A stretch of 64,000 nucleotides of DNA, taken from contig NC_057317.1 of NCBI RefSeq assembly GCF_000687475.1, positions 2,976,001 through 3,040,000 of the forward strand. The letters run 5' to 3'. The notes under the pieces were generated by a model. That model searched no databases, had not been told where the DNA came from, and saw only the letters and a program-made list of their open reading frames with translations. Positions within the stretch are counted from its first letter, which is position 1. Every line of letters starts with the position of its first letter. The position numbers were made by a program, and so were the translations under genes. Below, one piece after another: positions 19,954 through 25,520 of the stretch. Origin of the DNA: Ustilaginoidea virens (Eukaryota; Ascomycota; Sordariomycetes; Hypocreales; Clavicipitaceae).

Positions 19954-21777
19954 ATGTCTGCTGTTCCTGGTCCCGTCTATGGCCTCGAGGTCCCGCCCGG
20001 CGAGATCTTGATCCCGGCCTCTATGGACTTTCCTGCATCTGTGAGTCTGAGTTTTTAAATCCAACTGTAATGCGACGCCAATGCTCTTCTACTGTGGTTT
20101 CAATTTCTCGTTGCAACCCGCCCATGCCTTCAGCCCAGACACGGACCCGACTACACCTTGTAGTCCCCACGGTTTCAGAGACTGACCATACACCCTCCGC
20201 AGTTCCGCATCACCATGGCTGCCCTGGATCCTACTGCGCAGCCCGAGGCCGACGAAGAGGGCAACGTGCCCAGCGTTCCTCGCTCTACCCTGCGGCTTGT
20301 CAAGCGGGCTTTTCCTGGTCTCGATGAGGATGAGGATGAGGATGATGAGATTGACGACGAATACATGAAGGCAATGCTCGCTGCCTCTGATGATGACGAC
20401 GATGATGAGGAGGAGGAGGCTAATGGAGGCCCTAGCGATCCTGCCAAGGCTAAGAAACAAAAACAGGCTGCTGCCATCAAAGCCCTCCTTGAGGCCACAC
20501 AGGATAAAGACGATGATGATGATGAAGAGATGGAAGATGCCAAACCCAACGGTGCTAAGTCCAAGGATAAGTCCAAGGATAAGTCCAAGGTCAAGCCCAA
20601 GGATGAAGCCAAGGATAAGTCCAAGGGCAAAGGCAAGGGCAAGGGAAAGGCCAACGCAGTCGAGGAAGAGGAAGAGGACGATGAAGAAGACGACGAGGAC
20701 GAAGACGAAGATGACCAGAGTGACGAGGGAGCCGACCTCGAGAACTTCGTGGTGTGCACATTGGACACTGAGCGAGTAAGTTGCCTGCCAAATTCCTCCA
20801 GGTGCTTGCTCCAAGGCTAATAGCATGCGGCAGAACTACCAGCAGCCCCTTGACATCACTGTTAACCATGGCGAAAAAGTCTTCTTTGTCGTCACTGGTA
20901 CTCACTCCGTCTACCTTACTGGTAACTACATCATGGATGATGACGACATGGACAGCGAGGACGACGAGGAGGATGACGGCTTTGACCCCCGAGAAATCGA
21001 CTATGCCATGGGCGAGGACACAAGCGATGACGAGAGTGACGACCTTGACGACGTCGAGAATCCCCGTGTCACCGAGGTCGACTCGGATGAAGAGGAAGCT
21101 CCCAAGTTGGTCGAAACCAAGAAGGGCAAGAACAAGCGTGCTGCCGAAGAGGCCGAGGGTCTTGACGAGATGATTTCGAAGGCTGCTGACTCAAAGAAGC
21201 AACAAAAGAAATTGAAGAACAACAAAGGCGAGGCTGTGGCTGCCGAAGAGGCCAAGAAGGATAAGAAAGTTCAATTTGCCAAGGACCTCGAGCAGGGGCC
21301 TACAGGCTCCAGCAAACAGGCCGGCAAGCCCACAACCGGAGTCAAGGTTGTCCAGGGAGTCACTGTTGACGACAGGACTCTCGGAAAGGGCCGAACTGTC
21401 AAGAGCGGCGATACTGTTGGTGTTAGATACATTGGCAAGCTCGCCAATGGCCAGCAATTTGATGGTGAGTTGACTTTACTCCTCCCAACATGAAAAAATA
21501 TGCTTTTTTTTTTTTTTTTTTTTTTTTTTGTAAGGGATGAGACGTGTTACTGATGACGATCAAATTATTAGCCAACAAAAAGGGCAAGCCATTCTCCTTC
21601 AAGGTCGGCAAGGGCCAAGTCATAAAGGGCTGGGACATTGGCATCGTTGGCATGGCCATTGGTGGCGAACGTCGCTTAACAATTCCTGCCCATCTAGGAT
21701 ACGGCTCTCGCGGCATGCCTGGCATCCCTGCCAACAGCCAATTGACATTCGATGTTAAGCTGCTGGAGATCAAATAA
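19954..21777 (+). CDS. Nucleolar FKBP-type prolyl isomerase, Fpr3/Fpr4-like
   Basis: Four exons (19954-20040, 20203-20775, 20834-21464, 21572-21777) encode 498 residues; all junctions are GT..AG and keep frame. The N-terminus ([22 protein letters not shown]) is the nucleoplasmin-like fold that continues after the second intron ([33 protein letters not shown]). Between and after are long Asp/Glu tracts and Lys-rich repeats (KDKSKDKSK), typical of histone-binding nucleolar proteins. The C-terminal 110 residues are the FKBP catalytic domain: [69 protein letters not shown]. By family it isomerises peptidyl-prolyl bonds, including in histone tails, and acts as a histone chaperone in rDNA chromatin. 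The intron before the last exon has a 20-nt poly-T run. Confidence 0.93.
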
Positions 21778-22737: not shown

Positions 22738-25520
22738 ATGAAGGCCAAGCTAGTCAGTAAGCCAAGTAGTTGCGCAGCATTGGATCCAGTCACAAGACCG
22801 CCTCCACCACCGGGCTCAAAGATGGACTGTCAGAAGGACGATGAACAAGCTGAAGCGAGTTCGGTCAAGGTGAGACCGGGAGGTGCAAAGGTCTTCTCCG
22901 AAATTCGCAGTGCAATTCGGGCCATCAGACGAACACCATATAACTGTTTGTAGAACAATCTTCCCGTCAACTGACGCCCTTTGGGAGCATCCAGAACTAA
23001 CCCCAGTTTGAGCAGGCTCAGATGGCTCTGCTGCATTTGAGTGGAAGCAGAGACGTTCGTCATCGGCGAACGTGGACAAACGTCAACTCGGCCACGAATT
23101 GAACAACATTCCGACTCCGATCCTGCAACGCAAGCCCAAAGGCATGTCACCAAAGGCAATAGCCAAAAGGCTTGGGTTCGACAATATTGGAGTGTCCTCA
23201 AACGCTACAGTAGTCCTTCGAGGCTCGCCGCTTCGGCGGCGCACGTCACTTCAAGCCCTACCCAGCTCTCCAAGCTTGCAGCTTGGTGATGCTGTTAGCT
23301 CAATATCCTCCCTGTATACGGATAAATCGTCAAACGTTGGCAATAACTCGACTCGGAAAACTTCTGTAGATTCTCGCTTTTCCGACTATACGACGACCAA
23401 GTCCAGCTTGAAGAGGCGTCACAGTCGCAGACACCCGTGGTCCAAGTCAAGTCCCGACGGCGGAACTTTGCAAACCATAGATGAAGGGCTCCATCAACCC
23501 CAACCCACCATTCTGACCGTCGAGAAGGCATCGGCAGCAAAAGTGTACTTGGAGACTCACTTTAACAATCTTCTTCATAAGCCAAGTGCCAGAACTACTC
23601 GCTTGCAATACTTGGAGTCACAGCTTTACTACAGTCCCCACCTGGACTTGCAAGAAAAGGACATCATCAGACAGTCGTTTTATTATCAAGAGATGTGCCA
23701 TTCGAGGGAAGTACGAGTCACCAAGACAAAGTCCTTGACCTCCCTCAAACAGGGAACTTGGTCGCAAGCGGATGGCTATGATTGCCTAAAGATTCTTGGC
23801 CGCGGGAGCTTTGGGGTGGTCAAGTTGGTCCGAGAGAAGGCTGATGAAGCACATGCATTTCCACGACAGGTTTTCGCCATGAAGGTGATACGTAAATCAG
23901 AAATGATTCGTAGCTGCCAGGAAGGTCATTTGCGAGCCGAAAGAGACTTTCTCGTGGCATCCGAGGGCTCGAACTGGTAAGAATGGGGTGACGCCAAAAG
24001 CCAAAGAGAGGAAGGGGAAGACATGAACAAACAAAATCTTCATTGCTAACCAGGTTTATCCGCAGGATTGTGCCGCTGGTGGCAAGTTTTCAAGACCTGA
24101 ACAGCCTGTACTTGGTCATGGAGTATATGCCGGGCGGTGATTTCCTCGGCCTCTTGATTCGGGAAAACATCCTGCACGAGTCCGTAGCCAGGTTTTACAT
24201 TGCTGAAATGATTCTGGCCGTTGAAGAGGCCCACCGGCTCAAGTTTATTCATCGAGACATCAAGCCGGATAACTTCTTGATATCAGCTTCCGGACACTTG
24301 AAAATATCGGATTTCGGGCTCGCTTTTGACGGACACTGGTCCCATGATGTTTCTTATTACAGCTGCCAGCGTTACTCGCTGCTTGGAACATTGGGGATCC
24401 AGATAAACGGGGATGCAGACGACCGAAAGAAGCAGACGAATATCAGCTCACAGATTCCTTGGTTGCAAGCAATGAGGTGTATCCTGGACCGTCACGAGAG
24501 AAAAGGGGTAGAGAATGACGACGATTTGCCTAGCCTATTGGGCTAGAGGAACAGATGTGGCAACCGTGTCTCTGCAAATTCTGTTGTCGGAACGAGCCAA
24601 TACATGGCTCCAGAGGTGATTCGAGCTTGCAAAGGATCAGAATACGATGGACGATGTGACTGGTGGAGCATCGGCATCATTCTGTACGAGTGCATTTACG
24701 GACATACCCCCTTCTTTGCTGACGATGGTCGGAAGCAGACCAAGAGCAACATCCTGGTAAGTTGAGCTGCCCGGCATGAATGGAAATGAGGAATTGCCTG
24801 ACAAGCCACGGAAAGGACCACAAAAACATGTTTTCATTTCCGCAGCGACCGCTCGTCAGCGACAAGTGCAAAGATTTGATTTTTCGACTGATTCAAGACA
24901 AGGAGGTTCGGCTGTGCTCGAGGCGGTATCAGATGAAAGATCGCTGCCAAGCTGACGACCGGAGGTTCGCCGATGTCTTTGGGCGGCATGTCTTTCCTGA
25001 CGACGCAGAAGATATCAAATCTCATCGATGGTTCAAAAACTTTCCGTGGGACCGCATACACACCATCAGCCCACCATTCATACCACGAATTACTAGTCTC
25101 GAAGACACGCATTACTTTGACGAGTCTGGCCCTTTTACCGAACCAATAGGCTCGTACGAGCTTGATACTGTGGACCACAAGGCTGATGATGTCCGCTGGG
25201 TGCTGAGAGAATGTCGGCCAGTGGTACAGAACATGGCCGCCGACATGCTCGCGACGCCATATGATTCCGCAAGACTGCGAAGTGCTGATCGAAGGATTGA
25301 CAGGACCTTCAACATAACTCCCGAGGAAAGGAAAACCCTCAAAGCGTTTCTCCGCATGTATGGGAGAAAAGAGCGAAAACGGCCCAGGGACATTTTATTG
25401 CGAGACCAGAGCACCAAGAACGTGGCCATGGACGTGCGGAAGAAGACGGCGTTTCTGGGATACACCTGGCGTCGAATGCGTCCCGGGGGTTACATAGCGT
25501 CCAACCTGGGCATCGTATGA
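22738..25520 (+). CDS. AGC/NDR-like protein kinase (PUK1/STK-21 type), interrupted by one in-frame TAG
   Basis: Exons 22738-22869, 23042-23976, 24066-24756 and 24816-25520 give 820 codons, with TAG at codon 516 (24544-24546). The first exon is less certain; a GTG-only stretch precedes residue MDKRQ-equivalent 23072, and joining to ATG 22738 keeps frame. The kinase core is complete: GRGSFGVVKLV, FAMKVIRKSEM, LVMEYMPGGDF, FIHRDIKPDNFL, ISDFGLAFDGHWSHD, then an insert ending LPSLLG-TAG-RNRCGNR, then VVGTSQYMAPEV, CDWWSIGIILYECIYG, and an AGC C-terminal extension (HRWFKNFPWDRI, DTHYFDESG). Relatives have Trp where TAG stands. By family knowledge, the Fusarium relative PUK1 is expressed in perithecia and needs UAG-to-UGG editing within its kinase domain. 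Without readthrough or editing, the product stops before the APE motif and would be inactive. Confidence 0.82.
24530..24546 (+). promoter_or_regulatory. Perfect inverted repeat ending in the in-frame TAG of the kinase
   Basis: CTAGCC-TATTG-GGCTAG: a 6-bp perfect stem with a 5-nt loop. The in-frame TAG forms the last three bases of the 3' arm, so here the adenosine would be paired in this fold. It may still be accessible in another local fold. Confidence 0.4.

Follow-up and report, generated by a model that had tools for sequence, protein, structure and literature searches.

A PUK1-type kinase gene of Ustilaginoidea virens carries an in-frame amber codon at a conserved tryptophan, a probable target of adenosine-to-inosine editing

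Results

Structure of the kinase gene and its in-frame stop

The stretch of DNA analysed here (the window) comprises 64,000 nucleotides of contig NC_057317.1 of the rice false smut fungus Ustilaginoidea virens (Clavicipitaceae, Hypocreales) and contains, on its forward strand, a gene for a PUK1/STK-21-type protein kinase with one in-frame TAG codon. The gene is composed of four exons: exon 1 (22738–22945, donor GTTTGT), exon 2 (23016–23976), which encodes the N-terminal region and the kinase N-lobe up to SEGSNW, exon 3 (24066–24756), which encodes most of the kinase C-lobe, including HRDIKPDN, DFG, the activation insert, APE and CDWWSIG, and exon 4 (24846–25520), which encodes a C-terminal extension ending GYTWRRMRPGGY and closes with the stop TGA at 25518–25520. 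The exons join into 845 codons, among which the only stops are codon 550 (TAG, 24544–24546, hereafter site A) and the terminal codon; the product is an otherwise intact 844-residue NDR-type kinase, with 294 residues beyond the inner stop. An earlier note, made from the letters of the window, had described the kinase as complete and in frame save for this TAG, and both the description and the coordinates 22738–25520 prove right.

The TAG lies in the frame of exon 3, and its A (24545), the candidate edited base, is position 1649 of the coding sequence. Residues 1–549 are identical, at every letter, to the public U. virens model UV8b_02573 (P0069), which terminates at the codon 550 stop with 549 residues. 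In particular, exon 1 as drawn here yields the N-terminus of UV8b_02573 exactly, and a 19-base exon 1 from an earlier gene model was dropped in favour of it. The stop is positioned where the activation-loop insert ends, in the context LLG-*-RNRCGNR, and the motifs that follow it, RNRCGNR, GTSQYMAPE, CDWWSIG and the C-terminal GYTWRRMRP stretch, are all preserved, as the earlier note had also read them. Pkinase matches in Pfam flank the stop on both sides; the N-lobe piece submitted to Pfam by itself gives no match, and an Rfam scan of the 64-kb window gives none either.

The genome searched (37.2 Mb, 8 contigs) is a single assembly. A sequencing or assembly error at 24545 would account for the TAG, and public model P0069 is not independent of the assembly; however, codon 550 is also the end point of models from three further species, and we regard such an error as highly improbable.

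The stop stands at a tryptophan retained by relatives

To place site A among its relatives, three protein searches (with the best 120, 25 and 120 matches listed) supplied 183 homologous models, which were brought into one joint alignment. The column of site A holds W in 165 of the 183 models, or in 162 after removal of the misaligned P0008, P0009 and P0128, and the earlier expectation that relatives carry Trp at this column is thereby confirmed. Of the other models, P0133 has R, two Beauveria models have P, four skip the stretch and six fall short of it. Furthermore, the residue of yeast CBK1 (4lqp) aligned to site A is W. Five models end right before site A, namely those of U. virens, Epichloe festucae and Conoideocrella luteorostrata and two of Ophiocordyceps australis.

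A missed intron that removes the TAG, such that the stop is never present in the mRNA, would be an alternative explanation. Fourteen frame-keeping GT-AG pairs could excise the TAG, and models from Metarhizium, Thelonectria and Cudoniella skip the site A stretch. However, all 14 introns are at least 72 bases long and each deletes residues that relatives keep, and they were rejected for this reason; the Trp is encoded in place in 162 of the 183 models; and skipping of this kind is a documented annotation artefact of PUK1 and CHE1. We therefore consider a missed intron very unlikely.

Three models that skip the stretch deserve separate mention. Those of Metarhizium rileyi and M. acridum (P0006 and P0014) break off at HERK, before site A, and continue with SIG, which follows CDWW, and most Claviceps models, unlike the Metarhizium ones, leave only after APE; this hints that Metarhizium perhaps carries stops at both site A and CDWW. 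The model P0114 from the Leotiomycete Cudoniella acicularis skips the site A stretch and keeps CDWW, for which a true intron or a site A stop are both possible. The Leotiomycetes are a class in which, according to PMC11087585, no A-to-I editing has been found so far.

The published PUK1 site is uninterrupted in U. virens

The tandem Trp codons known to be edited in PUK1 correspond, we infer, to the Trp pair of CDWW, because no other tandem Trp is present in the protein from U. virens; the Fusarium models that skip just that stretch fit this assignment. In U. virens the pair (site B, codons 589–590, 24661–24666) reads TGG TGG in the genome, without interruption, which rules out that the TAG of codon 550 is one of the PUK1 tandem codons. 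The earlier note had proposed that the stop is related to that of PUK1; this holds for its kind, a UAG at a Trp codon, but not for its place, which is 39 codons upstream of the CDWW pair.

The ends of the public models are concentrated at the same few codons. Specifically, in 19 of the 183 models the last residue directly precedes one of three Trp codons: eight end at CD, six at CDW (among them P0133, which reads CGW) and five at LLG. In a set of 23 early-ending models, 17 stop before these Trp codons, P0123–P0127 stop around the exon-2 border, and P0155 stops elsewhere. In a further 42 of the 183, judged by text pattern, the CDWW pair is passed over and the model picks up again at its second Trp or right after it; WW is retained in 51, and the remaining 76 end or skip otherwise, including the five that end at site A and short fragments. 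Resumption at this point suggests that annotation programs took the AG within a TAG for a splice acceptor, and truncated or intron-padded models are documented for both PUK1 (PMC4817773) and CHE1 (PMC11169179). Trp-to-TAG changes make up only 4–9% (depending on transition weight) of the single-base changes that create a stop in this coding sequence, so random knock-outs would not give such a pattern of stops at Trp codons.

The same pattern bears on readthrough or a suppressor tRNA, rather than editing, as the source of some full-length kinase. Readthrough would explain conservation past the stop equally well, but it would not by itself place stops on Trp codons, as in the 19 models above, and the next codon, AGG, is not known to be a readthrough context. 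Its probability appears to be minimal.

Coding constraint persists beyond the stop

Constraint was compared across 14 rows, with 440 columns upstream and 213 columns downstream of the stop, and with the stretches skipped by public models, including CDWW, left out. Between the two parts, downstream against upstream, the identity that U. virens shares with each of the 13 relatives shifts by −3.7 to +1.8 points. For example, the values in that order are 0.798 and 0.798 with Claviceps digitariae, and 0.836 and 0.817 with M. rileyi. The U. virens branch has a downstream-to-upstream ratio of 1.28, against 0.89 for the whole tree, and thereby falls within the range of the other tips (0.37–1.89). At the protein level, then, the near-equal identity and the absence of any frame break indicate coding constraint past the stop.

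A tree of 47 models, computed from the upstream part only, places U. virens near Metarhizium with weak support, and Epichloe with Claviceps, which has W at site A; Ophiocordyceps australis belongs to a family other than Clavicipitaceae. The five models with a site A stop do not form one group but require three changes when four rows of unknown state are omitted, or four when these rows are counted as stop-less, and a single clade for the three Clavicipitaceae stops is ruled out by the tree test. On the tree, it is possible that the stop arose several times, or that it arose in Clavicipitaceae and was then lost in Claviceps.

Sequence and predicted structure around the candidate adenosine

The bases flanking the candidate adenosine, C-U-[A]-G-A-G-G, match five of the six positions (−2 to +4) for which preferences have been taken from editing sites of Fusarium graminearum (PMC9600606). 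A flank score of 5 is reached by 17 of the 674 scored A's of the coding sequence, and a score of 6 by none. In the predicted RNA structure, a hairpin of seven pairs with a three-base loop spans 24530–24546 on the forward strand, and its 3′ arm contains the candidate A. Among the 74 UA sites of the coding sequence, 36% are predicted in hairpin loops and 31% in stems; at site B, the middle base is predicted to be unpaired in codon 589 and paired in codon 590. Fungal editing is reported to prefer hairpin loops, with sequence weighing more than structure (PMC9600606), and of four structure changes tested in published work, three reduced editing, and one, from loop to stem, increased it slightly.

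Several observations weigh against an editable stop. At site A, the +2 base is the depleted A, and the codon is not outstanding, since three of the 13 Trp codons (site A and two more) score 5. The candidate A is predicted in a stem at seven of seven flank lengths, with a pairing probability of 0.88–0.995 at four of them, and thus does not conform to the hairpin-loop preference, which is a preference and not a rule. The site A endings of other species are known from protein models only. Finally, a small-sample check, confined to domains, brought no second case. Nine other kinase matches in the genome contain TAG, and by eye all of these TAGs are intronic or at the match edge. No in-frame TAG is present in the domain matches to DNA methyltransferase (three), SPO22 (one), DCP1 (one) or RhoGAP (nine, one of which has TAA), representing the rid, SPO22, Dcp1-like and Rho-GAP families that have edited members in F. 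graminearum (PMC4817773).

These points have a natural counterpart in a recent pseudogene, in which U. virens has lost the role of the kinase and the TAG is a simple knock-out mutation that precedes decay. The predicted stem and the lack of a further editable stop among the few U. virens genes checked would fit such a history, as would the downstream branch, which is slightly long relative to the upstream one and would by itself allow a very recent loss. Against it, there is no second lesion across the 294 codons that follow, codon 550 is also where models of Epichloe, Conoideocrella and O. australis end, and Trp-to-TAG is a minor route to a stop, as given above. On balance, we judge a pseudogene unlikely, and prefer an editable stop.

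Two loci encountered in the domain check may be recorded here. The domain of the SPO22 orthologue (L033, G000:C5:432284-433018 with flanks) is open, a statement that applies to the domain. In a kinase-like sequence (L032, G000:C3:283400-284600), an in-frame TAA interrupts the activation segment (ELQT-stop-YGTTPYIAPE) in addition to intron stops, and the sequence looks like a broken kinase copy.

Orthology and gene neighbourhood

By sequence, the gene is the PUK1/STK-21 orthologue of U. virens, an NDR-type AGC kinase, because of its closest matches, its conserved neighbourhood, and yeast CBK1 and human STK38 as the nearest solved structures. The 13 best matches are Claviceps and Metarhizium models, with 71–78% identity over 99–100% of query residues 200–781. 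Across the relatives, identity is 71–78% for Claviceps, 75% for Metarhizium, 72% for Tolypocladium and 69% for Purpureocillium takamizusanense, with coverage of 92–100% of the queried part; models from Fusarium and Trichoderma are less similar than those of these four genera. A search of the U. virens genome with the N-terminal 549 residues revealed no close second copy, and the runner-up by E-value is a different kinase, with 47% identity over residues 312–476; a few shorter matches in the genome reach 54%.

Directly upstream of the kinase, at 20825–21777 on the forward strand, there is part of a gene for a nucleoplasmin-like and FKBP-type prolyl isomerase (PF17800, PF00254). Public models P0104 (Fusarium longipes) and P0022 (Stachybotrys) fuse the same two genes, and the neighbourhood is for this reason considered conserved. 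Together with the closest matches, the upstream neighbour upholds the assignment of the gene to the PUK1 type in the earlier note. The fusions themselves are probably annotation errors that reveal a kept gene order. Near the 5′ end of an apparent intron of the FKBP gene there is a long T run (21504–21529).

Editing machinery and sexual stage

Candidates for the components of the fungal editing complex are present in the genome. Tad2, named by its HAE and PCxxC motifs, is located at C4:5156511-5156948, and a TAG within the match appears to be an intron end. Tad3, likewise named by motif, is located at C1:5560131-5560589 and has H-C-V, in which the catalytic Glu is replaced by Val; FgTad3 likewise has Val for the catalytic Glu, as published. 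Ame1 is a DUF726 protein in which M-V at 500–501 is required for editing (PMC11087585). Three DUF726 genes, from five matches, are present (C7:1569872-1570972, C4:4667569-4668684 and C2:2725264-2726376), and a TAG in one match resembles intron sequence. At the M-V place, located by residue counting only, back from the catalytic serine, the C7:1569872 gene has F-V and the C4:4667842 gene has A-S, and the C7 gene with F-V is a candidate for Ame1. U. virens also produces fruiting bodies with ascospores (PMC7344243).

Discussion

We propose that the PUK1 orthologue of U. virens is gated by an editable amber codon that is opened by A-to-I editing in fruiting bodies, a reading that we hold to be probable from the sequence and by analogy with orthologous genes; the site A stop most likely represents an editable stop that is recurrent and has been relocated. 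Translation of unedited mRNA in vegetative cells would yield a truncated protein that, as deduced from the sequence, stops short of the APE segment and is devoid of the lower part of the kinase, and this product would presumably be inactive in hyphae. During fruiting-body development, by extension from F. graminearum and Neurospora crassa, the Tad2-Tad3-Ame1 complex would deaminate A 24545, the resulting UIG would be read as Trp, and the full-length kinase would be made and would act in ascospore formation, as in these two species. The gate would thus be located at a Trp codon other than the published PUK1 sites, with the CDWW codons being sense here, and would have been gained or lost several times at the site A codon within Hypocreales.

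A broader version of this proposal, to which we give rather less than even credence, is that the gate moves. In Hypocreales, the kinase may have been kept under an editable amber codon that shifts between three Trp codons within one domain, and the lineage of U. virens may have restored sense at CDWW and regained the gate at LLG-W. Were this the case, selection would therefore keep the kinase dependent on editing, and not on one site.

Opinions differ on whether stop-correcting editing in fungi represents a neutral ratchet or a switch under selection. A gene in which the stop at the usual place is absent, a stop at another place is present, and the same codon is stopped across genera constitutes a natural test: under a ratchet, stops are expected at any place where editing tolerates them, and under a switch, one gate should be retained at all times. 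The present survey also suggests that many public models of the PUK1-type kinase are truncated or padded, with the CDWW pair absent from 132 of the 183 for various reasons, so that the kinase looks truncated where it probably is not.

In searches of an open-licence library, we found no report of a PUK1 stop at the site A codon, nor of mRNA editing in U. virens. Of two papers on this species, PMC12194633 has A-to-I editing in its reference list only, and PMC12884345 discusses it for other fungi.

The closest precedent is PUK1 of F. graminearum (FGRRES_01058), an orthologous kinase in which a stop in the catalytic domain is converted to Trp by A-to-I editing in perithecia; it differs in that its tandem UAG UAG is edited to UGG UGG (PMC4817773), whereas U. 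virens has TGG TGG at the corresponding pair and carries its stop 39 codons further upstream. The same gene in N. crassa (STK-21, NCU03242) and Fusarium verticillioides (FVEG_01191) has a single UAG, as does that of U. virens, and in these two species it is edited to UGG in perithecia; it is the first codon of the pair in N. crassa (UAG UGG) and the second in F. verticillioides (UGG UAG), and in Magnaporthe oryzae and Claviceps paspali the genome itself carries G at the PUK1 pair (PMC4817773). In N. crassa, non-editable stk-21 alleles do not restore ascospores (review PMC7306014). CHE1 of F. graminearum is alike in having a premature UAG that is kept among species, is edited, and causes truncated or intron-padded models, and unlike in being an unrelated zinc-finger gene, edited in hyphae, at one site common to close Fusarium species (PMC11169179). 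Editable PUK1 stops are thus known, and the new elements are site A itself, the models that end there in four genera, and the sense CDWW pair in the same gene.
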